Assembly: GCA_938084715.1 (NCBI GenBank)
Contig: CALKES010000023.1
Coordinates: forward strand, 1-38,545
Direction of reading: 5' to 3'
DNA from: Candidatus Bipolaricaulota bacterium
Lineage (GTDB): Bacteria; Bipolaricaulota; Bipolaricaulia; Bipolaricaulales; Bipolaricaulaceae
Length of the DNA stretch: 38,545 nucleotides
A program made the translations under genes and the position numbers. Below the pieces are notes generated by a model that saw only the letters and a program-made list of their open reading frames with translations, ran no database searches and had not been told where the DNA came from. Below are positions 1,463 through 38,545 of this stretch, in pieces (the stretch's first letter is position 1; every line of letters starts with the position of its first letter).

Positions 1463-2911
1463 GTGCGGCGGGCCCTCCTTCCCGGCTTGGGAGCTGCCCT
1501 CGGCTTTGGGATCGCGTTCGGCTACGCCTTCTTCCCCGGGCCCCTGGCCCTCGTCCCCGCCGGAGCCTCCTTCCTCCTCGCCCTTGGCCGGCGGTCGGCC
1601 CTCGCCCTGTGGGGGGCCGCGTTCGCCGTCGGGCTCGCTCTGCCCGTCCGGGAGACCCTCCCTCCCCACCTCGCCTTCCAGCTCCCCAACCTCCGGGAGG
1701 TCGGGGGCGTTGTCCTCGACCTCCCCGAGCCCCGGACGAAAAACGCCTCCTTCACCTTGGCTGTGGAGACCCTGGGGGTGAGACTCCTGGCCTACATTCC
1801 GCTTGGGACCGAGCTTGGTCCTGGCGACCGGGTGCGGCTCGTCGGGCGGTGGGGGGTTCCCCAGCCGCCGGCGTGGCGGGAGGCCCTCCTCCGCCGGGGG
1901 ATCCACGGCCTCTTCTGGGCCGACGGGGCGGAGGTCGAGGCGCCGGGGGGACCAGGCCTCCTCCGCCTGGCGTGGAGGGTCCGGGGGGCCCTCCTCTCCC
2001 GCCTGGACGCCGGGCTCCCCTGCCCGGCGGCGGACCTCCTCTCCGCCCTCCTCCTCGGGGCCCGGGGGAGGCTCCCGGACGACGAGGCGGAGGCGTTCCG
2101 TCGGGCCGGGGTGGCCCACCTCCTCGCGCTTTCGGGGCTCCACGTGGGGATCCTCGCTGCAGGGGGCTGGTGGTTTCTAGGGCTCCTGCGCGTCCCCCGG
2201 GCCTGGCGGTATCCCCTCCTTGTACCGGCGGCGGGGTTCTACGTCCTCCTCGGGGGGGCGCGGGTGTCCCTCCTCCGGGCGGGGATCATGTTCGCCCTCT
2301 TGGGCCTGTTCTGGCTTCTCTGGGAGCGGGGGTGGGTCCTCCGGCGGTGGCTCGACCCCCTCCAGGGGCTCTCCCTCGCCGCGATCGTGGTCCTCCTCCT
2401 CTGGCCGTGGTCGGCCCTTGACGTGGGGTTCCAGATGTCGTTTCTTGCCACCGCGGGGATCGTCCTCCTCCTCCCGGGGTGGACGGGCTCCCCCCTCCGG
2501 GGGAGGCTTCCCCGGTGGGTGAGGCCGGCGGCGGATCTCCTCGCGGTGACGCTCTGCGCTCAGGCCGGGGCGGTCCCCGTGGTGGGCTCGGCGTTCGGCT
2601 ACCTCGCCCCGTACGGGTTCGTGGCCAACCTCGTCCTCGTCCCCTGGACGGGGGCCCTCCTCTGGGCCGGGCTCCTCGCCCTCGCTCCGCTTCCGCTGGG
2701 GGTTGCGGTGGAACGGGCCGTCGTGGGCCCCTACCTCACCGTGGTCCGATGGCTCGCCGCGCTCCATGGGGCGTCCCTCCCGGTGGGGCCTGGGTTCGGG
2801 GCCTGGTGCGTCCTCGCCGCCGTGGGGTTCCTCCTCCTTCGGGCCCTGACTGACGAGATGCCCGATGGGGGCTACTTCGCGATCCGCCAGAGTTGGACGT
2901 CCCCGGAGTAG
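1463..2911 (+). CDS. comEC: ComEC/Rec2-type DNA-uptake channel protein
   Basis: This is an integral membrane protein of 482 residues that would carry single-stranded DNA across the inner membrane. The start is taken as GTG 1463, preceded by GGAGG at 1449-1453; the frame is open further upstream, but that part lies over the tmRNA gene. Two early hydrophobic segments are followed by a soluble OB-like region (DUF4131-like, from about residue 50). The Competence domain follows, with the family signature HLLALSGLHVGILAAG near residue 220 and many later membrane helices (e.g. GARVSLLRAGIMFALLGL). The usual C-terminal metallo-beta-lactamase domain is absent: the protein ends shortly after the last helix. 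Its last 40 bases overlap the convergent WD40 gene. dprA, another competence gene, lies 1 kb away. Confidence 0.88.
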   Translation: MRRALLPGLGAALGFGIAFGYAFFPGPLALVPAGASFLLALGRRSALALWGAAFAVGLALPVRETLPPHLAFQLPNLREVGGVVLDLPEPRTKNASFTLAVETLGVRLLAYIPLGTELGPGDRVRLVGRWGVPQPPAWREALLRRGIHGLFWADGAEVEAPGGPGLLRLAWRVRGALLSRLDAGLPCPAADLLSALLLGARGRLPDDEAEAFRRAGVAHLLALSGLHVGILAAGGWWFLGLLRVPRAWRYPLLVPAAGFYVLLGGARVSLLRAGIMFALLGLFWLLWERGWVLRRWLDPLQGLSLAAIVVLLLWPWSALDVGFQMSFLATAGIVLLLPGWTGSPLRGRLPRWVRPAADLLAVTLCAQAGAVPVVGSAFGYLAPYGFVANLVLVPWTGALLWAGLLALAPLPLGVAVERAVVGPYLTVVRWLAALHGASLPVGPGFGAWCVLAAVGFLLLRALTDEMPDGGYFAIRQSWTSPE

Positions 2912-3858
2912 TCGGTGCTGTACTCCCCCGAGGTCGTGACCACCCGCTCCCCGTCCGGGAACACGATCAGCCCCCAAATCGATTCCCTGGCCCCGGTGTA
3001 CTCGGCGATCTTGGCCCTGCTGCCGAGGTCCCAGACCTCGATCTTCTTCCCGAACCCCGCGGCGAGGATCCTCCCCCCGTCGGGCGAAAAGGCGAGAACG
3101 TAAAGCGAGCTCGTCACCCCCTGCCGGAGCCGGAGCTCCTCGCCCCACCCGTCCGTCCGGTAGACCCGGATCTCACCGGGGTTGTTCACGCACGCCAGGC
3201 GCCTCCCGTCCGGGGAGAAGACAACCCGGTACACGTTGATCCCGGCCTGGATCGGATCAAGCCTCAGCCGGAGGGTGTCGGTGTCCCAGATCCGGATGAA
3301 CCCGTCGCAGCCGCTCGTGGCCAGGGTCCGGCCGTCGGGGGAGAAGGTGACGCAGCGGACCCAGCTCATGTGGGCGCGGTCCTTCTCCTCGGCGTTGACG
3401 AGCCGGGGGTCGATGAAGATCCCCACCTGGACCCCGGAGGGCACCTCCCAGAGCTTCACCCGGCCGTCGAACCCCCCCGAGGCGAGGAGGGCCCCGTCGG
3501 GGGAGAACGCCACCGACCACACGGTGAAGACGTGGGCGCGCTTCCGGAAGAGCAGGGCCCCCGTGCCGAGGTCCCAGACGAGGATGCTTCCGTCCTGGTC
3601 CCCGGCGGCGAGGAGGCGCCCGTCGGCCGTGGCCGCGAGGGACGACACCCGTCCCTCGGCCCCGGACAGGGAACGCAGCGGGCGGGCGGGGCTCGCAACC
3701 GACCGGATCTCCACCGTCCGCCCGGAGGCCACGGCGAACCGATCCCCGTCGATCCGGGCCAGGGCGTGCATGTGGAAGCTCCCCTCGAGGGCCGTCTGGG
3801 CCGCAAGCCCAACCCCGATTCCGGCTACCGCGACGAGCGTTCCGGCGATCTTCTTCAT
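2872..3858 (-). CDS. Secreted WD40-repeat beta-propeller protein
   Basis: 328 residues. A signal peptide (MKK, then GTLVAVAGIGVGLAAQ) is followed by WD40 repeats. At least six blades can be seen, with the motifs FSPDGALLASGGFDGRVKLW, FSPDGRTLATSGCDGFIRIW, FSPDGRRLACVNNPGEIRVY and FSPDGGRILAAGFGKKIEVW, and a last blade ending DVQLWRIAK. A seventh blade may be formed by the N-terminal strand region. No enzymatic domain is present; such proteins act as protein-binding scaffolds. The start ATG at 3858 has a GGAGG site eight bases upstream, and a TACCAT box lies at 3877-3882. It is convergent with comEC (40 nt overlap) and divergent from dprA (59 nt gap). The partner and role are unknown. Confidence 0.85.
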   Translation of the reverse strand: MKKIAGTLVAVAGIGVGLAAQTALEGSFHMHALARIDGDRFAVASGRTVEIRSVASPARPLRSLSGAEGRVSSLAATADGRLLAAGDQDGSILVWDLGTGALLFRKRAHVFTVWSVAFSPDGALLASGGFDGRVKLWEVPSGVQVGIFIDPRLVNAEEKDRAHMSWVRCVTFSPDGRTLATSGCDGFIRIWDTDTLRLRLDPIQAGINVYRVVFSPDGRRLACVNNPGEIRVYRTDGWGEELRLRQGVTSSLYVLAFSPDGGRILAAGFGKKIEVWDLGSRAKIAEYTGARESIWGLIVFPDGERVVTTSGEYSTDYSGDVQLWRIAK

Positions 3859-3876
3859 AGGACCACCTCCGGGGGG

Positions 3877-3910
3877 ATGGTACCCAGGCCGGGGCCCTCC
3901 CGGCTACCAT
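3877..3910. promoter_or_regulatory. Divergent -10 boxes for the WD40 gene and dprA
   Basis: In the 59 nt between the two divergent start codons, TACCAT occurs on the minus strand at 3877-3882 (18 nt before the WD40 ATG). It occurs again on the plus strand at 3905-3910 (7 nt before the dprA GTG). Neither has a good -35 box. The dprA box is so close that its transcript would begin at or next to the start codon. Confidence 0.45.
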
Positions 3911-5049: not shown

Positions 5050-5110
5050 TCCCGTGGGCCGCGCGGAGGGGACGAAGCGGAAGGGTGGAGTTGGATCAAG
5101 GGAGGCGATG

Positions 5111-7201
5111 ATGCGAACGACCCTGGTGTTCGTCCTTTTGTTCGGGCTGGTCCTCGCGGCGGGGGCGGCCCCCGAGCGGCTGGCGTTCATCCTCGACGCG
5201 TCGGACTCGATGAACCTGGCCCTGGCCGGGGGGCCGACCCGCTTTGCCTGGGCCCAGGAGGCGCTCACGCTGGTCCTGGGGAAGCTATCCGATGAGACGG
5301 TGTTTTCGATCACGGTGTTTGGGCACCGGATCCCCAAGGCCCAGGAGCGGGCCACGTGCCGGGACATCGAGCTCCTGGGGGAGTTCACGGCCCGGACCGC
5401 GGCCGAGCGGGAGGAGCTTGCGGCCCGGGTTCGCGGGCTCACCGCGATGGGGAAGACCCCGCTGGCGGAGTCCCTGCGGTTCACGGCAGCGCGGGTTCCG
5501 GCCCCGGCGCGGATCATCCTCCTCACCGACGGGGGGGAGACCTGCGGGGGAGACCCGGTTGCCGAGGCCCGGCGGCTGTGCGCGCTCGGGTACACGGTGG
5601 ACGTGGTCGGCCTCTCCCTCACCCCTGCCGATGAGCAGGCGCTTCGCGCCATTGCCGCAGCGGGGTGTGGGCAGTTCATCGTCGTTGGGGAGCCCAAGGA
5701 CCTCGTCCCCCTGTTCCGGGAGTTCGTGATCCCAACCCCCACTCCGACGGTCCCGAACTGCCTCGCCCAGTACAAGGTGGATCCGGCGATCGTTGCCCTG
5801 CTCGTGAAGCACCTCCCCTACGATCCGTGCACCGACCCGATGTGGCCGGTCATCCTGTGCTTCCTGGAGCAGAACCCGCCGGCCAAGGTCATCGTGGGGA
5901 CGGTCGGCGACGACGTCCTGTTCGGAACGCCCGGAAACGACCTCATCCTCGGCCTGGGCGGCGACGACCAGATCTTCGGCTTTGCGGGGAACGACCTCCT
6001 CATTGGGGGGCCCGGGAACGACCTCATCCAGGGCGGGGACGGCGACGACCTGATCCTCGGTGGACCGGGCGACGACCTCCTGTTCGGAGGGGCTGGCGAC
6101 GACGTGATCTACGGTGAGGACGGCGACGACCGGATCGAGGGCGAGGCCGGAAACGACAAACTGTTCGGTGGCCCGGGCCACGACATCATCCTCGGGGGAC
6201 CGGGCTGCAACGTGATCGACGGTGGTCCAGGGAAGAACTTCGTCTACGACGAAGGGACCTGCGCCCCGCGCCCCCTGCCCACGCCGGTCAGTACCCCCCT
6301 TGCTCCCCCGACCCCCAAGCCTTCCGTCTCACCCGTGTGCCAAGTCGCCCCCGAGATCAAGACGGTCGTTGAGGGGGGGAGCATCGTCCTCCGGGCAATC
6401 GTACACGATCCCGATGGTGACCCCGTTCGGGTAACCTGGTCTGCCCCCAAGGGGCAGTTCTCCGATCCTCATGCGTTCGAGCCGACGTACTACGCGCCAT
6501 GGGTCAAATCCTGCGACGGCGAACTGGTGGAGATCACCCTTACCGCCGTCGACGCCTGCGGCGCGCAAGCGGTAGACAAGCTCATCCTCCACGTCCTCAA
6601 CGTGAACCACCCGCCGGCGGTGGACGCCGGGCCTGACCTTGCCGTGGACGAAGGCGGCCGGGTGCGGCTCCTCGCCTCGGCGTCCGATCCGGACGGCGAC
6701 GCCCTCACGTTCTTGTGGACGATCCCCTGCGGACGGGGCGCGCTCGACAACCCGCGGGCCCTCCAGCCGGTCTACACCGCCCCCCTCACCAGTCGGTGCG
6801 AGGGGGAGACGGTGGAGCTCGTCCTCACCGTGACCGATGCCTGCGGGGCAGTGGCCACGGACACAGTGCGGATCCACATCCGGAACCTCAACAGAGCCCC
6901 CTGGGCCGACGCCGGTCCGGACCTCCAGGTCCCGGAGAAGGCCCAGATCATGATCCTCGGCAAGGCCGGCGACCCCGATGGAGAGAAGCTCGTCGTGTCG
7001 TGGGTCGCCAGCGCGGGAACCCTCCTCAACGCCGACACCCTGTGCCCGATCTTCGTCGCCCCCGAGGTGACGGGGTGCGACTACCTCCTGGTCACGGTGA
7101 CCTTGTGCGTCGTCGACCCGTGCGGGGCGGTGGCCCAGGATAGTCTGGTGATCAAGGTCCTCAACGTGAACCACCCGCCGCAGGTGAAGGCGGATCCGTA
7201 A
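5111..7201 (+). CDS. Secreted VWA domain / RTX repeat / Ig-like repeat protein
   Basis: 696 residues from ATG 5111, chosen because GGGAGG at 5100-5105 lies five bases before it; the ATG at 5108 is too close. Order: signal peptide (1-19), then a von Willebrand factor A domain (about 24-205). The complete metal-ion site is D29-A-S31-D-S33 of DASDSM, the Thr of GKTPLAESL and the Asp of LTDGGETCGG. Residues 260-385 hold about twelve RTX-type calcium-binding nonapeptides such as GGPGNDLIQ, GGAGDDVIY and GEDGDDRIE. A Pro/Thr linker is followed by three PKD/cadherin-like repeats, each beginning like NHPPAVDAGPDLAVDEGG and ending DACGA...V. The protein stops just inside what looks like a fourth repeat (NHPPQVKADP). 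It is Sec-exported, probably calcium-dependent and adhesive. A strong terminator follows. Confidence 0.88.
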   Translation: MRTTLVFVLLFGLVLAAGAAPERLAFILDASDSMNLALAGGPTRFAWAQEALTLVLGKLSDETVFSITVFGHRIPKAQERATCRDIELLGEFTARTAAEREELAARVRGLTAMGKTPLAESLRFTAARVPAPARIILLTDGGETCGGDPVAEARRLCALGYTVDVVGLSLTPADEQALRAIAAAGCGQFIVVGEPKDLVPLFREFVIPTPTPTVPNCLAQYKVDPAIVALLVKHLPYDPCTDPMWPVILCFLEQNPPAKVIVGTVGDDVLFGTPGNDLILGLGGDDQIFGFAGNDLLIGGPGNDLIQGGDGDDLILGGPGDDLLFGGAGDDVIYGEDGDDRIEGEAGNDKLFGGPGHDIILGGPGCNVIDGGPGKNFVYDEGTCAPRPLPTPVSTPLAPPTPKPSVSPVCQVAPEIKTVVEGGSIVLRAIVHDPDGDPVRVTWSAPKGQFSDPHAFEPTYYAPWVKSCDGELVEITLTAVDACGAQAVDKLILHVLNVNHPPAVDAGPDLAVDEGGRVRLLASASDPDGDALTFLWTIPCGRGALDNPRALQPVYTAPLTSRCEGETVELVLTVTDACGAVATDTVRIHIRNLNRAPWADAGPDLQVPEKAQIMILGKAGDPDGEKLVVSWVASAGTLLNADTLCPIFVAPEVTGCDYLLVTVTLCVVDPCGAVAQDSLVIKVLNVNHPPQVKADP

Positions 7202-11073: not shown

Positions 11074-11102
11074 TTGCCGCTCCTCCTCTCCGGCACTAGA
11101 AT
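11074..11102 (+). promoter_or_regulatory. Promoter of the secreted unknown protein
   Basis: TTGCCG (11074-11079) and TAGAAT (11097-11102) are separated by exactly 17 bp. Transcription would begin near 11109, about 20 nt before the GTG start. This is one of the clearest sigma-70-type promoters in the window. Confidence 0.75.
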
Positions 11103-11129
11103 GCCCTCATCTTCTGGGGGGTGATTCTT

Positions 11130-11798
11130 GTGGTCACCAAGAAGCTTGGGTTGTCCCTTGGCTTGGCCCTTTTCGTGGCGGGCGTGGCCGTGGGGCAGGC
11201 GGTTCAGATCAGGGTCTTCACCGGAGGAACCCAGGCGGTCTACTGGTTCGGGAACGGAACTGGCAAGGCGGTGGACGGGTTCCGGGTGGTGTTCGATGGC
11301 CCTGTCGCCCTCACCGGGAAGGTCGAGGTGTTTGGAGGGCTGACGAACGTCACCGGAACGAACGAGGGGATAGAGTTTCTGTTCCAGGGGAAGCTGGCGC
11401 CGATGGGGTTTGTGGAACTCCGCTGGGAGCCCGCGGGGGCGAAGCCGGTCCTGGCGATGTGGCTTTCCGGAGGCCGGCCGGCGGGGATGCTCTACGCGAC
11501 CTCCGTTCAGGCCCTGATCAAGGTCCTCGCCGAGGGGCTCGTTGGGCTGCGGGAGGCGGATCCGGGGGCGTTCACGACCCTTCTGGAGACCTTCTTCGCC
11601 ACGAACCCCACCCTGGCGACGTCCCTGGGGCAGCTTGGGCTGACGCCCCAGGTGCTCACCGGGATGCTCCTGGTGGCCCCGGCGGACGGGATCGAGAACC
11701 TCCTCCTCACCCTTGTGAGCTCGTTTGGCCTCGATACGGTGGAGAAGTTCATGGGGGCCCTCGACTGGTCCCTCATCTTCGGGGCCCTCGGCCTGTAG
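11130..11798 (+). CDS. Secreted protein of unknown function
   Basis: 222 residues. The start is GTG 11130, preceded at 5 nt by GGGGGTGAT, an almost full complement of the 16S rRNA tail; a GTG at 11121 lies inside that site. The signal peptide (VTKKLGLSLGLALFVAGVAVGQA) is followed by a beta-rich first half (e.g. VQIRVFTGGTQAVYWFGNG, VVFDGPVALTGKVEVFGG) that resembles an immunoglobulin-like or carbohydrate-binding sandwich. The second half is helical and hydrophobic (LLETFFATNPTLATSLGQLG, ENLLLTLVSSFGLDTVEKFM). No family is recognised. It has its own promoter and a strong terminator, so it is a single-gene unit. Confidence 0.75.
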   Translation: MVTKKLGLSLGLALFVAGVAVGQAVQIRVFTGGTQAVYWFGNGTGKAVDGFRVVFDGPVALTGKVEVFGGLTNVTGTNEGIEFLFQGKLAPMGFVELRWEPAGAKPVLAMWLSGGRPAGMLYATSVQALIKVLAEGLVGLREADPGAFTTLLETFFATNPTLATSLGQLGLTPQVLTGMLLVAPADGIENLLLTLVSSFGLDTVEKFMGALDWSLIFGALGL

Positions 11799-15589: not shown

Positions 15590-17281
15590 CTACTTCCGCT
15601 CTGTGATCCGCCCCTCGACCTCGGGGCTCACCGGGGAGTGAACCCGCAGGTACTCGGCGAGGACCTCGGCGTCCACGAACCCCAGCACGATCTTCTCCTT
15701 GGCCTCGGTGAACACGGTGTAGCCGTCCCCGCCCCCGGCAAGGAAGTTGTTCGTGACCACCTGGTACGTGGAGGTCCGGCGGATCGCCCGGTACCCCTCG
15801 GGGGTGAGGACCTCGGCGGAGACGATCCGGCTCCCGGCGGGCTTCGTGGGGTCCCAGGTGAACCGGAGGCCCGCCACCTGGGGGAACCGGCCGGCCACGG
15901 TCTCGACCTGGGAGACCCCGTTCTCCAGGGCGGCCAGGATCTGCTCCCCAGTGAGGGTCAGGACGACGAGGTAGTTCCCAAACGGGAGGACCTCCAGGGC
16001 CTGGCCGAGGGTGATCGGGCCCGCGGGGATCGAGGCCCGGATCCCGCCGCCGTTCTGGATCGCGATCTGGGCCCCCGCCCCGGCGGCCTTCCACAGCATC
16101 GCATCAGCGATCAAGTTTCCCAGGTTCGTCTCCCGCGTCCGGACCCGGCCCCGGTCCCCGTCGAGGTCCACCTTCGTCTCGCCCACCCGCTCGGCCTTCA
16201 GGGAGTCGATGGGCGCCCGGAACTCGGCGAGCTGGGCCTCGATCCGGGGCTCGAGGGGGGCCTTGTCCACGGGGAGGAGCTCCCCGGTCCAGGACTGGAG
16301 GACCCCCTGGTCGTCGAAGGTCACCGTGAGGCGGCCGAGGTGAGATCCCCGCTCCCCCGCCTGGACCACGAGGCCGGGGACCGTGGCGTCAACAAGGGAA
16401 ATCCGATCCCGGATCCCGGCGAAGGTGGCCGGGCCGATCCCCCGGACCTCCATGATCTCCTCGGGGGTCTTGAACCCGCCGCGGGCCTCCCGGTACTCGA
16501 TGATCCGCTGGGCGAGCACGGGCCCGATCCCGCGCAGGGTCTGGAGCTCCTCAGCGGAGGCGGTGTTGATGTTCACGAGCTTCCGCTCCACCACGAACGG
16601 GTACTCCTTGGGGAGGGTGTGGGAGTGGCCCCCGACGACGATGTCGATCCCGGTCACGGACTGGATGAGCTCGAGGTCCCGCTCCCACCCGAGGTGGGTC
16701 AGGGCGACGATCGCGTTCACCCCCAGGGCCTGGAGCTCAGCCACCGCCCACCGGGCCGCGGCGAGGGCGTCCCCGATCTTGATGTTCGGTCCGGGGTTTG
16801 AGCTCCAGGAGGTGCTCTCCGGGGTGAGCCCAAGGATCCCCACCTTCCCCCCCTCGACCTCGACCACGATGTACGGGAGGACCTTGCCTGCCAGGAGGGG
16901 CTCCGCGGTGAAGTCGAAGTTGGCCGAGAGGAGGGGGATGCCCGCCGCCTCGGCAAACCGGGCCAGGCCCGCCGGCCCCTCGTTGAACTCGTGGTTTCCG
17001 AGGGCCATCGCCGTGAACTCCATCTCCCGGAGGACCCACGCCTCGGCCAAGCCCTTGTGGACGGTGTAGTATAGAGTCCCGACCACCGTGTCCCCTGCGT
17101 GGAGGAGGATCACGTTTGGGACCTGGAGCCGAATCTCCTGGACAAGCGTTGCCTGCCGGGCCATGTTCTCAAGCTGCGAATGGGTGTCGTTCGTGTGAAG
17201 AATAGTCAGAGTCCAAGGAGCGGCTCCGCTCCCAAGACCAACTGCAAACGCAAGGAAAAGAACTGCCAACAGCCTGTGCAT
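15590..17281 (-). CDS. Secreted 5'-nucleotidase with inserted ComEA-type HhH domain
   Basis: 563 residues from ATG 17281 (AGGAGG 5 nt upstream; the GTG at 17287 overlaps that site). After a signal peptide (1-21) comes the calcineurin-like metallophosphatase domain. All metal motifs are present: NDTH 31-34, GDTV 63-66, GNHEF 95-99, THLG 195-198 and GGHSH 217-221. Residues about 234-296 are a complete ComEA-like double helix-hairpin-helix domain (KLVNINTASAEELQTL, RGIGPVLAQRIIEYREARGG, RGIGPATFAGIRDRI). It is inserted where the family normally runs straight from GGHSH to the VQAGERGSHLGRL segment, which here resumes at 303. The C-terminal substrate domain follows with GNLIADAML, NGGGIRASI and NFLAGGGDGY. 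It probably dephosphorylates nucleotides outside the cell while held on DNA; the DNA-binding part is inference from the ComEA match. Confidence 0.92.
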   Translation of the reverse strand: MHRLLAVLFLAFAVGLGSGAAPWTLTILHTNDTHSQLENMARQATLVQEIRLQVPNVILLHAGDTVVGTLYYTVHKGLAEAWVLREMEFTAMALGNHEFNEGPAGLARFAEAAGIPLLSANFDFTAEPLLAGKVLPYIVVEVEGGKVGILGLTPESTSWSSNPGPNIKIGDALAAARWAVAELQALGVNAIVALTHLGWERDLELIQSVTGIDIVVGGHSHTLPKEYPFVVERKLVNINTASAEELQTLRGIGPVLAQRIIEYREARGGFKTPEEIMEVRGIGPATFAGIRDRISLVDATVPGLVVQAGERGSHLGRLTVTFDDQGVLQSWTGELLPVDKAPLEPRIEAQLAEFRAPIDSLKAERVGETKVDLDGDRGRVRTRETNLGNLIADAMLWKAAGAGAQIAIQNGGGIRASIPAGPITLGQALEVLPFGNYLVVLTLTGEQILAALENGVSQVETVAGRFPQVAGLRFTWDPTKPAGSRIVSAEVLTPEGYRAIRRTSTYQVVTNNFLAGGGDGYTVFTEAKEKIVLGFVDAEVLAEYLRVHSPVSPEVEGRITERK

Positions 17282-17392
17282 ACTCACCTCCTCGAGGAAA
17301 GTCCCGCGGCTGAATGGGTCAGGAGCGCTCAGCCGTAACCTCGACTCTCACCCCCTTCCCCGCCCGTGGGGCGGGCCGTGTGTGCACCACAA

Positions 17393-33195: not shown

Positions 33196-33509
33196 TGCCC
33201 CCCTACGGCCGGCTCCGTCTGGAATCCACGATCGTCCGCGCCGTGGCGGAGATCCTCGAGTTCGAGGTCAAGGACCCCGCGGTGCGAGCCCTCCTCCCCA
33301 CCGTGGTGGGGGCCCGGCTCTCCCCGGGGGGGGAGGAGGCCACCGTGGCGGTGGCCGTGGAGGGGGGAGACGAGGCCCAGGCCCTCGCCGCCCTCCGCCA
33401 CGACAAGGGGTTCATCCGGGCCCAGCTCGCGCGCAGGCTCTCCCTGCGAAGGGTCCCGGAGCTCCGGTTCATCGTCGTCCGCCCCTTGGGCGGAGAGTCC
33501 GGTGGATAA
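33195..33509 (+). CDS. rbfA: Ribosome-binding factor A
   Basis: 104 residues, at the short end of the family. KH-like fold: RLRLESTIVRAVAEILEFEV, KDPAVRALLPTVVGARLSPG, EEATVAVAVEGG, the helix ALAALRHDKGFIRAQLARRL and the final strand RVPELRFIV. It helps 30S maturation. ATG 33195 is coupled to DUF503, and the end overlaps the next gene by 8 nt. Confidence 0.9.
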   Translation: MPPYGRLRLESTIVRAVAEILEFEVKDPAVRALLPTVVGARLSPGGEEATVAVAVEGGDEAQALAALRHDKGFIRAQLARRLSLRRVPELRFIVVRPLGGESGG

Positions 33510-34695
33510 GCCCAGGCTCCCCGTCCTCCCCCTCCTCTCGAGCCTTCACTCGGGCGCGGAGAAGCTGACCCGAGAGGTCACCATCGCCTTTTCGGAGAGG
33601 AGCGGGGTCGAGCTCCTCCCGTTGGGGGAGGTGGAGGCCCTCGCCGAGCCCGTCCCCGTCCTCCTCGTCCTCACCGGGGGGACCGAGGAGCGGGCGCTGG
33701 AGTTCCTCGCCAGGGCGCGAGGGGGGGCTGTCCTCCTCTCCCATCCGGCCCACAACTCCCTCCCCGCGGCCCTGGAGATCGCGGCCCGGCTGCGGGAAGA
33801 GGGGAAGGCCGCCCGCCTCGTCCACCTCGGGGCGGGAGCGGAGGAGCTCCCCGTCCTCGCCCGGGCGGTCGCCCTCGCCCGCGCCCTCCGGGGGAAGCAG
33901 GTGGGTCTCGTGGGCGAGCCCTCGCCCTGGCTCGTCGCAAGCTCCCCGGATCCGGCGATTCTTCGGGGAAAGCTCGGAATCGAGGTGGTCCCGATCCCCC
34001 TCGAGGAGGTCCTTGCCCGGGTGCCCGCGGCCGCCCCCCCGGTGGAGGGAGAAGGGAAGGGGATCGGGGCAGAGGAGCGGGGGGTGGGAGCGCGGGTCCA
34101 CGTCGCCCTCCGGAGTTTGGTAGAGGAACGGGGTCTCGATGCTTTCTCGATTGCCTGCTTCGGGCTCCTCCCCCACCGGATGACCGCCTGCTGGGCCCTG
34201 GCGTGTTTGGCTGACGACGGGGTCCCCGCGGGCTGCGAGGGGGATCTCCCCGCCCTCCTCGCCCTCCTGGTCGCCCAGGAGCTCACCGGGGGGCCGGGGT
34301 TCCTCGCCAACCCGGCCGACGTCGACCTCAAGGGGGAGACCCTCACCCTGGCCCACTGCACGGTCCCCCTCGCCCTCACCCGTTCCCGTCTCCTCCGCAC
34401 CCACTTCGAGTCGGGCTTGGGGCTCGCCGTGGCCGGGGAGGTGAAGCCGGGTCCGTACACCCTCGTCCGGTTCGGGGGAAAGGATCTCGATCAGGGGTTC
34501 TTCGTCGAGGGGCGGGTGCTCGACGAGCGGGTCGGGCGGGAGGACCTGTGCCGGACCCAGGTCCGGTTCAAGATGCCCCGGGGGGCGATGGAGCGCCTCC
34601 TCCGGGAGCCCCTGGGGAACCACCACGTCCTCGTCCCCGGCCACCACCGGGGGGTCCTCGAAACGTTTGCTGACCTGGTCCTTCGGGTAGGCTAG
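33502..34695 (+). CDS. L-fucose/L-arabinose isomerase-like protein
   Basis: 397 residues. The first half is a Rossmann-like sugar-isomerase fold (VPVLLVLTGGTEERALEFLA, LLSHPAHNSLPAALEIAARL, GKQVGLVGEPSPWLVASS). The second half has the metal-site region ACWALACLADDGVPAGCEGD, followed by FLANPADVDLKGETLTLAHC and a C-terminal domain resembling FucI-C. These match distant L-fucose isomerase relatives, but the sugar is unknown. GTG 33502 overlaps the rbfA end by 8 nt. Being at the end of the infB-rbfA unit, where a DHH phosphoesterase or truB usually stands, is odd. It ends in a CTAG shared with the convergent surface-protein gene, so no terminator separates them. Confidence 0.75.
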   Translation: MDKPRLPVLPLLSSLHSGAEKLTREVTIAFSERSGVELLPLGEVEALAEPVPVLLVLTGGTEERALEFLARARGGAVLLSHPAHNSLPAALEIAARLREEGKAARLVHLGAGAEELPVLARAVALARALRGKQVGLVGEPSPWLVASSPDPAILRGKLGIEVVPIPLEEVLARVPAAAPPVEGEGKGIGAEERGVGARVHVALRSLVEERGLDAFSIACFGLLPHRMTACWALACLADDGVPAGCEGDLPALLALLVAQELTGGPGFLANPADVDLKGETLTLAHCTVPLALTRSRLLRTHFESGLGLAVAGEVKPGPYTLVRFGGKDLDQGFFVEGRVLDERVGREDLCRTQVRFKMPRGAMERLLREPLGNHHVLVPGHHRGVLETFADLVLRVG

Positions 34696-37600
34696 AACCG
34701 GAAGTTCCAGCCGACGGAAAGCCCCGTCGGCCCCCCAAGGACGTCGGCTGCCACCTTGACCTCGACGGTCATCCCGGGAAAGAGGGGAACCCCCCCGGAG
34801 AGGAGGACGCGGGAGATCCCAAACAACGTACCCGTGCGGGCAAAGTACACGGTCCCCTCAAGGGAGTAGCTCCCCCCACAGCAGGCCGGCCCGCAGAAGC
34901 CGAACTTCACGTACTCGAACTCCTCTCCCTGGAACCCCCCCGGCACCTGGGCCGGGTCCAGGGCGGTGACGAACTCAACAAAAGGGGACGATACCGCTCC
35001 CCCGGGGCACGAGCCGCCCCAGCAGCAGTAGACCTTGAACCCGTGGACGGCGATCCCCTCCCAGGTGCGGGTGGCGTCGTTCCATAGCGCGTTACCGTAC
35101 AGGGTGAGGCAGCCCTGGCACGGCCCCTCCCACTTGGGGAGGAGGCTCACCTCCTTGGCGCCGGGGGTGAACTTCACCGCGGCGCCCAGGGACACCCCAC
35201 AGCAGAGCTGAACGAGGCCGTCCACGGTGGCCTGGACGTAGGAGAAGCCGGCCTTGGAGAAGGAGAGGGAGACCTGGGCCGTGATTTCGCAACACAGCTC
35301 CAGCGAGGTGATGGTGGCGAGGGCATCGCGAAACCTCGCCCCCCCGTCCTTCTCCTCGAACCGCGCGGTGAACGACATGTTCCCGGCCCTCAGCGAGAGG
35401 ACGGTGAGGAGGTACGGCCCCGGCGGGGTACCGGCCTGGGCGTAGTGGGTCACCCGGAGGCTCGTGGTGAGCCCTGGGATTCGGTGGAGGAGGGCCAGGT
35501 AGCCGGTCCTGTACGCGGGGACCGTGGGGTCGAACGTGAGCCCACCCCCCACCTGGATCTCCCCCATCTTCCCCGAGCCGTGGAGCTGGAAGTTTGTCCA
35601 GGTGGATGAGACGAAGTTGGCGACCGCCCGGAAGGTCCACGGGACGGACCCGTAGCGGAGGACGTACCGAAGGTCGAGGGTCATCCGCTCCACGTCCGGG
35701 GAGGGGAGGAGGGAGACCGACCCCTGCAGGGAGCCGCCGACGGTGAAGGACTGGGGGATCCGCTCAAACCGGGCCTCGAGGACCCGATCCCGCTCCGCGG
35801 TGAACTCCAGGTCCGGGGTCAGACCGATCCGCTCCCGATCTTCGTACCAACCGACGAACTGGAATCCCCACGAGGGGAGGGCGGTGAGGCGGACCGTGGC
35901 CCCATGGGGGTAGATCCCGTCCCCGTCCACGGCCCCGCCCTCGGCGGGGGTCGCGTAGGTCTGGATCAGGACCGTGCTCCCTTGGGCGGAGACCGCGGCG
36001 GTGAGGACGCCGAGGGTGAGAAGCCCCAGGCCGAGGGCCTTCGGGTGGTGGCGGAAACGGAGGCCGAGGAACCCCAAGAGGCCCGCGCCCGCCAGCCCCA
36101 CCCACAGCCCCCAGCGGCCGATCCCCCCAGGGGAGAGGACTTGGAGCTCGAGGGACGAGCTGTCGTCGGGGTCGTCGTCGGCGGGGACGTAGGGGCTCTG
36201 ATCGGTGGGGATGGGGAGGTCCTGGGCGTCGAACCCGAAAGCCCACATCCGGTTCCGCAGGGTCTCCCCACGAGGTGCCTTGTCGGTGACGAGGGCCTCG
36301 AACACGACAACGAGGGCCTCCCCGGGGTCAAGGGAAGCCCCCAGGAACCAGAAGAGCTCAGGCCCGGGAGCCCCGAGGGGATCCGCGGTTGACCGCCCTC
36401 CAGGCCAGGCGGCCCGGGTCGACTCCGGGACGTAGCTCAGCCCTGGCGGGAGGAGGTCCTCGACCCGGACGTTGTACGCCCGGCTGTGGCCCACGTTGCG
36501 GACGGCGAGCTGGAACCGGACCCTGTCTCCGACCGCGAAGACAAACGGCGGCTTGGGGCACGGATTGCAGGGCTCCTCGGCACAGGGGTCGCAGTAGATC
36601 CCCTTCTCGGTCACCAGGGCCGGGACCCCAAGGAGGATCCGCGTCGCGTCCTCGTCGGGGTAGGGGTCGCCCACGTCGGGGTTGAACTCGGGGATCGGGG
36701 TCCCGGCCCCGTCCCGGCCCGTGACCCGGGCGAGGTTCACGAGGTACTGGCCCGCTGGGGCTTCGGGAAGGACCCGGGCCCGGTAGAGGCCGACGAGGGT
36801 TCCGCCCCCGGCGACCGTGGCCGAGATGTCCGCGGAGATCGTCCCCGTGGCCCCGTCGGGGATTCCAAGCGCCCCGGACGCCGGGGGGGTGTCGACGGTC
36901 CAAGTTCCGTCTCCGCTTGCGTCGTAGGCGAGGCCGAACGGAAGGGTGTCCGTGAGGTCCACGTCGTAGGCGGTGCCGAGCCCGACGTTGCGCACGGTGA
37001 CCCGGTACACGATCACATCGCCCCAGAGGACGATCGGCGTGGGCCAAACGCTCACCCCGCCCCGCAAGACGTCGATGATCTCTTTCTCCAGGGCGAGGCC
37101 GGGTTCGGCCACGGGGATTCGGGTGGAGTCCCGGTCGGGGTAGGTGTCACCCGTATCCGGGTTGTACTCGGGAATCGGTGTCCCCGCCCCGTCCTCCCCG
37201 GTCGCGACGGCGTAGTTGACGAGGTCCACACCCTGGGCGGCGGTGCTGCCGATGCGGGCGCGGTAGGCGGCGACGAGGGTCCCTCCGGGGTGGATCGTGG
37301 CCGAGATATCCGCGGTGATCGTTCCCGTGGCCCCATCCGGGATCCCCAGCGCCCCGGCCGCGGGCGGGCTGTCCACGGCGTACGTCCCATCGCCATAGGT
37401 CGTGTCGTACTCGACCTCTGGCGGGAGGAGGTCGGTGAAGTCCACGTTGTAGGCGACCCCGAACCCCACGTTGCGGATCGTCACCGTGTAGACGATCACG
37501 TCGCCCGGCTCGACCGGGCCGCTCGGCCCCCGGCTTGCCCCGGCCCGCAGGACGTCGGTGATCGCCTTGTTCAACGCCAGGGCCGGGACCGCCGCCGGGT

Positions 37601-38545
37601 GGACGACCCGGTCGGAGTCGTCCGGGTCGTCGTCGCCAGGCAGGCCGCTATCGGGGGGAATCGGGGTTCCCTCCCCCTCCTCTCCGGTGGCCCCCATGGT
37701 GTTCGTGTAGCTGAACCCCTGGCGGGCCAAGCTCGTCACGACGGCCACGAACCGGAGCACGAGGGTCTCTCCAGGGAGGAGGGTCGCCGAGAGGTCCCAG
37801 CCCAGGTACGGACCCGGGGCCCCCGCCGGATCGGCGGTGGAGCCCCCGCCTGGCCAGGTGGCGTTCGTGCTCCCCAAGACGTAGGAGAACTCCTCGGGAA
37901 GCTCGTCCCACAGGTCCACTCCGAACGCCCAGCCCATGCCGACGTTCGTCACGGTCAGGGTGTAGGTAATGACGTCCCCCGGCTCCACCGGGGAGTTTGG
38001 CGGCACGGGAGCCCCCGCCCGCAGGATCTGGGTGGTCGCCTTGTCCGTCACCAGGGCCGGGCAGCCGCAGGAGGCGAGGGTCTCCAGCTCGTTGTTCCCC
38101 GCGTTGCACTCGCAGATCGCGTCGCCTTCGTCCACCACCAGCCGGAACCGATGCTCCACCCCGCACTTCAGGGGCGGCGAGGTCCAGCTGATCGAGGCCG
38201 ATCCACCAATCGGAAGGGCCTCGACGGCGAAGGTGTGGGCCAGGATCCCGTCTACGTAGATCCGGACGTGGGTGGCCGGCGAGGCCTCGGTCCCGAGGTT
38301 CCAGGCCGTGGCCGTGACGGAGAAGCTCCCGTCCCCTCGGCACGTGACCCCGAGGTCGGTGAGGGTGAGGTCAGGATCGACCACCGTGAACCCCGCCCCA
38401 AGGGCGTTGTTCGCTGAGGAGCACTCACAGATCTGCTCATCCGGGTCCGCCGTGACCACGATCTCATGGAGGCCGCAGGGGAGGATTTCGCTGAGCTCTA
38501 CCGTGACGGTTGTGGTCCCCCCCGCGGGGATCGCAGGAAGCGCAG
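34692..38545 (-). CDS. Giant surface protein: CARDB and DUF11 repeats, membrane hairpin, Cys-rich barrel-like domain (5' partial)
   Basis: At least 1283 residues; the frame is open through the right edge, so the N-terminus is missing. Order from the upstream side: two CARDB-like beta domains (e.g. CEC-containing DEQICECSSANNAL and DAICECNAGNNELE), then four DUF11-type repeats. The repeat starts read PALVTDK, PALALNK, PGLALEK and PALVTEK, each with VxNVGxxxAxxVxxxDxLP. Repeats 2 and 3 are nearly identical over GALGIPDGATGTITADIS. Next are two hydrophobic segments (GLWVGLAGAGLLGFLGL and ALGLGLLTLGVLTAAVSA) joined by RFRHHPK, around 36130-35985. An InlB-B-like WGFQFVGWYED module and a ~360-residue beta-rich, CC-dense domain ending SVGWNFRF follow. 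A final Phe is typical of outer-membrane barrels. No internal start codon separates the halves. Confidence 0.85.
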   Translation of the reverse strand, partial: ALPAIPAGGTTTVTVELSEILPCGLHEIVVTADPDEQICECSSANNALGAGFTVVDPDLTLTDLGVTCRGDGSFSVTATAWNLGTEASPATHVRIYVDGILAHTFAVEALPIGGSASISWTSPPLKCGVEHRFRLVVDEGDAICECNAGNNELETLASCGCPALVTDKATTQILRAGAPVPPNSPVEPGDVITYTLTVTNVGMGWAFGVDLWDELPEEFSYVLGSTNATWPGGGSTADPAGAPGPYLGWDLSATLLPGETLVLRFVAVVTSLARQGFSYTNTMGATGEEGEGTPIPPDSGLPGDDDPDDSDRVVHPAAVPALALNKAITDVLRAGASRGPSGPVEPGDVIVYTVTIRNVGFGVAYNVDFTDLLPPEVEYDTTYGDGTYAVDSPPAAGALGIPDGATGTITADISATIHPGGTLVAAYRARIGSTAAQGVDLVNYAVATGEDGAGTPIPEYNPDTGDTYPDRDSTRIPVAEPGLALEKEIIDVLRGGVSVWPTPIVLWGDVIVYRVTVRNVGLGTAYDVDLTDTLPFGLAYDASGDGTWTVDTPPASGALGIPDGATGTISADISATVAGGGTLVGLYRARVLPEAPAGQYLVNLARVTGRDGAGTPIPEFNPDVGDPYPDEDATRILLGVPALVTEKGIYCDPCAEEPCNPCPKPPFVFAVGDRVRFQLAVRNVGHSRAYNVRVEDLLPPGLSYVPESTRAAWPGGRSTADPLGAPGPELFWFLGASLDPGEALVVVFEALVTDKAPRGETLRNRMWAFGFDAQDLPIPTDQSPYVPADDDPDDSSSLELQVLSPGGIGRWGLWVGLAGAGLLGFLGLRFRHHPKALGLGLLTLGVLTAAVSAQGSTVLIQTYATPAEGGAVDGDGIYPHGATVRLTALPSWGFQFVGWYEDRERIGLTPDLEFTAERDRVLEARFERIPQSFTVGGSLQGSVSLLPSPDVERMTLDLRYVLRYGSVPWTFRAVANFVSSTWTNFQLHGSGKMGEIQVGGGLTFDPTVPAYRTGYLALLHRIPGLTTSLRVTHYAQAGTPPGPYLLTVLSLRAGNMSFTARFEEKDGGARFRDALATITSLELCCEITAQVSLSFSKAGFSYVQATVDGLVQLCCGVSLGAAVKFTPGAKEVSLLPKWEGPCQGCLTLYGNALWNDATRTWEGIAVHGFKVYCCWGGSCPGGAVSSPFVEFVTALDPAQVPGGFQGEEFEYVKFGFCGPACCGGSYSLEGTVYFARTGTLFGISRVLLSGGVPLFPGMTVEVKVAADVLGGPTGLSVGWNFRF

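Follow-up and report, generated by a model that had tools for sequence, protein, structure and literature searches.

The cytochrome b/c1 precursor encoded by fbcH of Bradyrhizobium japonicum is a precedent for polyproteins that carry an internal signal. The bunyavirus Gn/Gc precursor is also a polyprotein with an internal signal (PMC7926653), and LtaS of Staphylococcus aureus is cut by signal peptidase I after a membrane segment that does not lie at the N-terminus (PMC10865820). The fused protein described here, encoded by a member of the Bipolaricaulota, resembles the Gn/Gc and fbcH precursors in having an N-terminal and an internal signal peptide, an anchor before the internal signal and, as predicted, cutting by signal peptidase. 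It differs from both in that the sequences are unrelated, one product is a predicted outer-membrane barrel, its cleavage is a prediction, and a single bacterial family contains both split and fused forms. The likeness to LtaS lies in a signal peptidase I cut, again predicted here, after a non-N-terminal membrane segment, whereas LtaS is a single enzyme and not two fused exported proteins. Gn/Gc and LtaS illustrate separate steps of the mechanism proposed below, which is already known elsewhere; its cargo and lineage are new.

For the individual halves, other described proteins serve for comparison. The upstream half is akin to surface proteins with DUF11 and CARDB repeats (TIGR01451, PF01345, PF07705), the likeness being the repeats themselves, which exceed curated cut-offs. 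The C-terminal domain is similar to outer-membrane porins, such as OmpF and the Rhodobacter blasticus porin, in its long antiparallel strands, a C-terminal Phe after an aromatic motif and the local fold; unlike them, it has 22 predicted strands and conserved Cys pairs, shares no sequence similarity with porins and belongs to no Pfam family. To our knowledge, DUF11/CARDB repeat proteins are not normally followed, in the same chain, by a second exported protein, and the joining of two exported proteins by a membrane hairpin into a polyprotein is rare among bacterial envelope proteins. As for the envelope in which such a protein would reside, the first closed genome of the phylum (Acetothermia) left the choice between a monoderm and a diderm organization undecided and reported no adhesins (PMC6092417), and a later paper described an outer membrane in Bipolaricaulota that is detached at the poles (PMC10665443).

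The window, that is, the whole stretch of 38,545 nucleotides that was analysed, is an entire contig (C23) of a Bipolaricaulota draft genome (G000). The features of the fused gene are listed below, with residues numbered within the part that the window encodes.

34692..38543, minus strand: whole fused reading frame in the window, the C-terminal 1,283 aa of a 3,231-aa protein whose 5' part is on another contig (G000:C18)
38082..38330, minus strand: CARDB domain, residues 72-154 (Pfam PF07705, E 9e-20)
36138..37997, minus strand: four DUF11 repeats, residues 183-802 (Pfam PF01345, E 2.1e-36, 4 stretches; NCBIfam TIGR01451)
36054..36110, minus strand: TM1, residues 812-830, a helix like a C-terminal anchor of the upstream half (hydropathy 1.49; terminates the upstream gene in split relatives)
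36039..36059, minus strand: basic loop RFRHHPK, residues 829-835, predicted to be cytoplasmic (sequence; positive-inside rule)
35985..36038, minus strand: TM2, an internal signal-peptide-like stretch, residues 836-853, with a predicted signal peptidase I site AVSA|QG after residue 853 (sequence, hydropathy; Q at +1 is enriched in the signal peptides of the lineage)
35757..35957, minus strand: InlB B-repeat (Flg_new_2) domain, residues 863-929 (Pfam PF18998, E 7.9e-10)
34695..35750, minus strand: Cys-rich beta-barrel-like domain, residues 932-1283, with 22 predicted strands (models, conservation, the C-terminus GWNFRF, alternation)
34695..34712, minus strand: C-terminal beta-signal-like motif GWNFRF (GWx3F in 18 of 18 readable C-termini of the family)

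The chain runs from the CARDB and DUF11 repeats through TM1, the basic loop and the signal-like TM2 ending in AVSA|QG to the InlB repeat and the Cys-rich beta domain ending in GWNFRF; a Cys-rich insert, CDPCAEEPCNPCP, precedes the last of the four DUF11 repeats. An earlier note, made from the DNA letters only, had spoken of adhesion repeats: the DUF11 and CARDB repeats are present, and adhesion is a putative role read from them. A sortase-type surface protein with a C-terminal sorting signal was considered and rejected, as no NCBIfam model for a sorting motif passes at the TM1 anchor.

On the minus strand, 1,283 codons with no stop lead from the contig edge at 38543 to the stop codon at 34692-34694, and the N-terminus of the gene lies outside the window. 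With a split relative (G010) as the query, the N-terminal part was located on contig C18 of the same genome, where it runs off the contig end. C18 and C23 overlap by 141 identical bases, which completes the contig extension proposed in the earlier note and gives a full protein of 3,231 aa. The joined gene begins MRRSDRGRG, its product starts with an ordinary signal peptide that ends near AGVG|QTVDL, and its 3,231 codons are in line with an open frame of 3,283 codons (3,283 aa) in a closed genome of the family (G009). Downstream, the stop codon of the fused gene overlaps that of a convergent plus-strand gene (33502-34695) at 34692-34695 (CTAG on both strands), leaving no space for a terminator between them. 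This neighbour encodes 397 aa, is found family-wide at the locus with 60-82% identity and has no Pfam match at E <= 0.001.

The same frame, with TM1, the basic loop and TM2, is carried by six Bipolaricaulaceae genomes besides this one (G011, G009, G020, G036, G005 and G032), of which G009 is closed and G005 has a frame break in a repeat upstream. In four relatives (G001, G002, G008 and G010), the locus is split and the TM anchor is kept: the upstream gene ends with a TM segment and a basic tail, its stop codon overlaps the ATG or GTG of the downstream gene, and the latter has its own signal peptide. Two more (G006 and G026) are split and lack the TM anchor. Most fused and split loci are convergent with the same neighbours as in the window, namely the 33502-34695 gene, DUF503 and IF2, and the two forms are therefore positional orthologues. 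The fusion is almost certainly real. The proposal that two ancestral exported proteins had been fused in frame is borne out, since split relatives hold the halves as overlapping genes at the same place and several genomes share the conserved fused frame; the suggested search for the halves as separate genes thus succeeded, and the possibility raised against it, that relatives always keep them separate, fails on the seven genomes with the fused form. Such a series of fused and split forms at one locus offers a natural experiment in how two exported proteins become one polyprotein via a membrane hairpin.

On a 13-genome tree, parsimony requires three changes to account for the distribution of the two forms, the AU test for fused forms as a single clade gives p 0.054, and G026 (split, without TM) falls outside all others under midpoint rooting. 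A plausible history comprises an ancestral split state, one fusion and later fissions. In G022, the same syntenic place holds only broken InlB and barrel pieces (L056:6731-7229, minus strand), and the locus is decaying there; the G032 frame contains one TAG within the barrel domain (L051:14305-14307, plus strand).

Comparison of the window with its relative G011 (78% identity) reveals whole-codon indels of 4 and 3 residues in the hairpin. There dN/dS reaches 0.64, against 0.19 upstream, 0.30 in the InlB domain and 0.23 in the barrel. The codon-sized indels and these ratios therefore indicate that selection maintains both halves and the frame. Within the hairpin, hydrophobicity is better kept than the sequence itself.

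The last ~350 residues of the protein have no Pfam, NCBIfam or PDB sequence match, and matches to ribosomal protein L15 (E ~0.5) were discarded as chance. Three standalone secreted relatives of this domain, each with its own signal peptide, are encoded in the same genome. By profile search, members are present in 39 of 40 Bipolaricaulaceae genomes and in a further 17 genomes, all belonging to one other family of the phylum. GWx3F terminates every family member with a readable C-terminus (18/18), an ending that fits the beta-signal of outer-membrane proteins. The lag-1 autocorrelation of hydropathy is -0.248, a value equalled by none of 2,000 shuffles. AlphaFold2, run with six orthologues, yields the InlB domain followed by 22 antiparallel strands (pLDDT 73, pTM 0.47), and a barrel-only model gives the same 22 strands, with pLDDT 70-73 and pTM 0.46-0.47 over both models. 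When the longer model is compared with the PDB by Foldseek, OmpF and other porins rank at the top (E 4e-6 to 1e-4; 125 matches at E <= 0.001), at low TM-scores of 0.2-0.4; the barrel-only model has no PDB match at E <= 0.001, its top matches still being mostly outer-membrane barrels.

The features of this half listed in the earlier note are confirmed: the chain ends in Phe (GWNFRF), the alternating beta-strand pattern exceeds chance, the Cys pairs LELCCE, VQLCCG, VYCCWGG and PACCGG are present as given, and the description "barrel-like" agrees with the 22-strand models, the porin fold matches, the terminal Phe and the strand alternation. The barrel prediction that it recommended returns 22 antiparallel strands with porins as the top matches, at moderate model confidence and with low TM-scores. 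The C-terminal domain is very probably an outer-membrane barrel, and its family has no entry in Pfam. Barrel-like, Phe-ended proteins of this family occur across the lineage in multiple copies and, together with Omp85, provide concrete outer-membrane candidates. The Cys residues of the domain occupy positions 1084/85, 1114/15, 1173/74 and 1221/22, plus 1142/1145, 1179 and 1217; ten of the 12 are invariant among six orthologues, and in both models the conserved ones lie at or beside the turns of strands 10/11, 12/13, 14/15, 16/17 and 18/19. If both ends of the barrel lie in the periplasm, these models predict all conserved Cys to be on the periplasmic rim. A disulfide ladder or a metal ring is a candidate role for the ten invariant Cys at these predicted turns.

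The hairpin between the halves consists of two hydrophobic stretches, residues 812-830 and 836-853, separated by RFRHHPK. By the positive-inside rule, we infer that the repeats are outside, TM1 leads in, RFRHHPK is cytoplasmic, TM2 leads out, and the InlB and barrel domains are outside. The two halves, which have separate-gene counterparts, stand in one frame, and the stretch between them reads as an internal signal peptide that ends in a predicted cleavage site for signal peptidase I; a polyprotein with an internal signal peptide is, with modest confidence, the best explanation of the fused gene, and the layout, called unrecognizable beforehand, matches this type. The N-terminal signal peptide would take a rod of ~2,800 residues of DUF11/CARDB repeats across the inner membrane until TM1 halts transfer, with the basic loop RFRHHPK remaining cytoplasmic. 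TM2 would then resume transfer as an internal signal peptide, so that the InlB and barrel domains end up outside, and signal peptidase I would cleave after AVSA, at AVSA|QG, leaving QGSTVLIQTYATPAEGG as the predicted new N-terminus. The first product would be a giant repeat rod anchored in the inner membrane, and the second a free InlB-barrel protein that enters the outer membrane via BAM (Omp85). One cut would in this way yield the same two products as in the split relatives, in 1:1 amounts. Omp85 is encoded in all 12 genomes tested, and the host encodes signal peptidase I; TamB was not found in this genome. A long rod anchored in the inner membrane beside an outer-membrane barrel would suit an envelope whose outer membrane detaches at the poles, and the rod could, at a guess, act as a tether or spacer in such a toga-like envelope.

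Cleavage at AVSA|QG is judged rather likely from the sequence. Signal peptides of the lineage were surveyed over ~440 kb, comprising twenty 20-kb stretches of two genomes (G000 and G009; L071-L090) and the window. Among 33 signal-peptide-like N-termini, 11 have Q as the first polar residue beyond the hydrophobic core, against 2.9 expected (binomial p 6e-5). This excess is exploratory, as an earlier and cruder cleavage-site predictor, which placed sites too early and was replaced by this second rule, gave 2/65 with Q at +1 and no excess. Ten of the 11 have an A-x-A-like site before the Q, and the internal stretch TM2 (VSA|QG) shows the same A-x-A|Q signature. Signal peptides of the lineage seem to obey a "Q-rule", with Gln at +1 behind A-x-A, as in the genes at 2875-3903 (minus strand) and 11100-11795 (plus strand) of the window; the published rule is described as specific to Bacteroidetes (PMC5837995). 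The A-x-A site after TM2 is not clean in three fused relatives (G036, G005 and G032), and cleavage may therefore not be general.

Two proteins could also arise if translation started again in the hairpin region, giving the barrel protein a separate signal peptide. This reading, which we consider unlikely, draws on the split relatives, which begin there with ATG or GTG, and on several fused relatives with start codons within or near the loop (ATG in G036, GTG in G009). In the window itself, the earlier statement that no start codon lies between the halves holds for the gap: no ATG, GTG or TTG occurs between TTG823, inside TM1, and GTG872, beyond the signal-like stretch, so that loop and TM2 are free of start codons. 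A start at TTG823 is formally possible on sequence grounds and would give a plausible signal peptide, but no Shine-Dalgarno-like sequence precedes this codon, and G011 has no counterpart at the same aligned position.

A slightly less probable alternative is a chain that stays uncut and tethers the two membranes, its hairpin remaining in the inner and its barrel in the outer one. Neither a stop nor a start codon separates the halves, some fused relatives have no clear A-x-A site, and tethers could help where the outer membrane is detached at the poles (PMC10665443). Against this, the link from the end of TM2 (853) to the first barrel strand (~930) measures only ~76 residues, most of them in one folded InlB domain a few nm in size. 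Such a link is too short for a usual periplasm; an uncut chain would therefore hardly lie in both membranes. The short link and the good, typical signal peptidase site AVSA|QG together make cleavage into two proteins likelier, and split relatives manage without any link. Threading of one protein through inner membrane, periplasm and perhaps outer membrane, as first suggested, is consequently not the likeliest arrangement: the topology places both halves beyond the inner membrane via the hairpin, and one chain in both membranes is improbable. Its boldest version, an uncut, 3,231-residue single-chain transenvelope tether with an inner-membrane hairpin, a Cys-ringed 22-strand outer-membrane barrel and a giant Ig-like rod, special to the toga-like Bipolaricaulota envelope, is more doubtful still.

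Equally doubtful is a two-partner-secretion or autotransporter-like pair, in which the barrel would bring the giant repeats out to the cell surface. At a conserved place, a large exported protein of repetitive sequence is indeed found beside, or joined to, a predicted outer-membrane barrel, but two TM helices between passenger and barrel would hold the passenger in the inner membrane, and paralogous barrels occur alone, without such partners. Pfam yields no POTRA or autotransporter family match, and an autotransporter or a POTRA-containing FhaC-type transporter was rejected on this ground.

That the join is a sequencing or assembly artefact, such as an error that removed a stop and start, is very improbable: although the window is a single contig of a draft genome and frame breaks or a stop occur nearby in G006, G005 and G032, the same fused frame is seen in independent assemblies, one of them a closed genome, and the codon-sized indels between G000 and G011 and purifying selection on both sides of the join reject it.

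Beyond the polyprotein gene, the window encodes another candidate surface protein at 5054-7201 (plus strand), in which a von Willebrand A domain is combined with Ig/PKD domains and three calcium-binding repeats of the RTX type. At 15590-17287 (minus strand), it encodes a secreted 5'-nucleotidase whose metallophosphatase and C-terminal domains are separated by an inserted helix-hairpin-helix domain.
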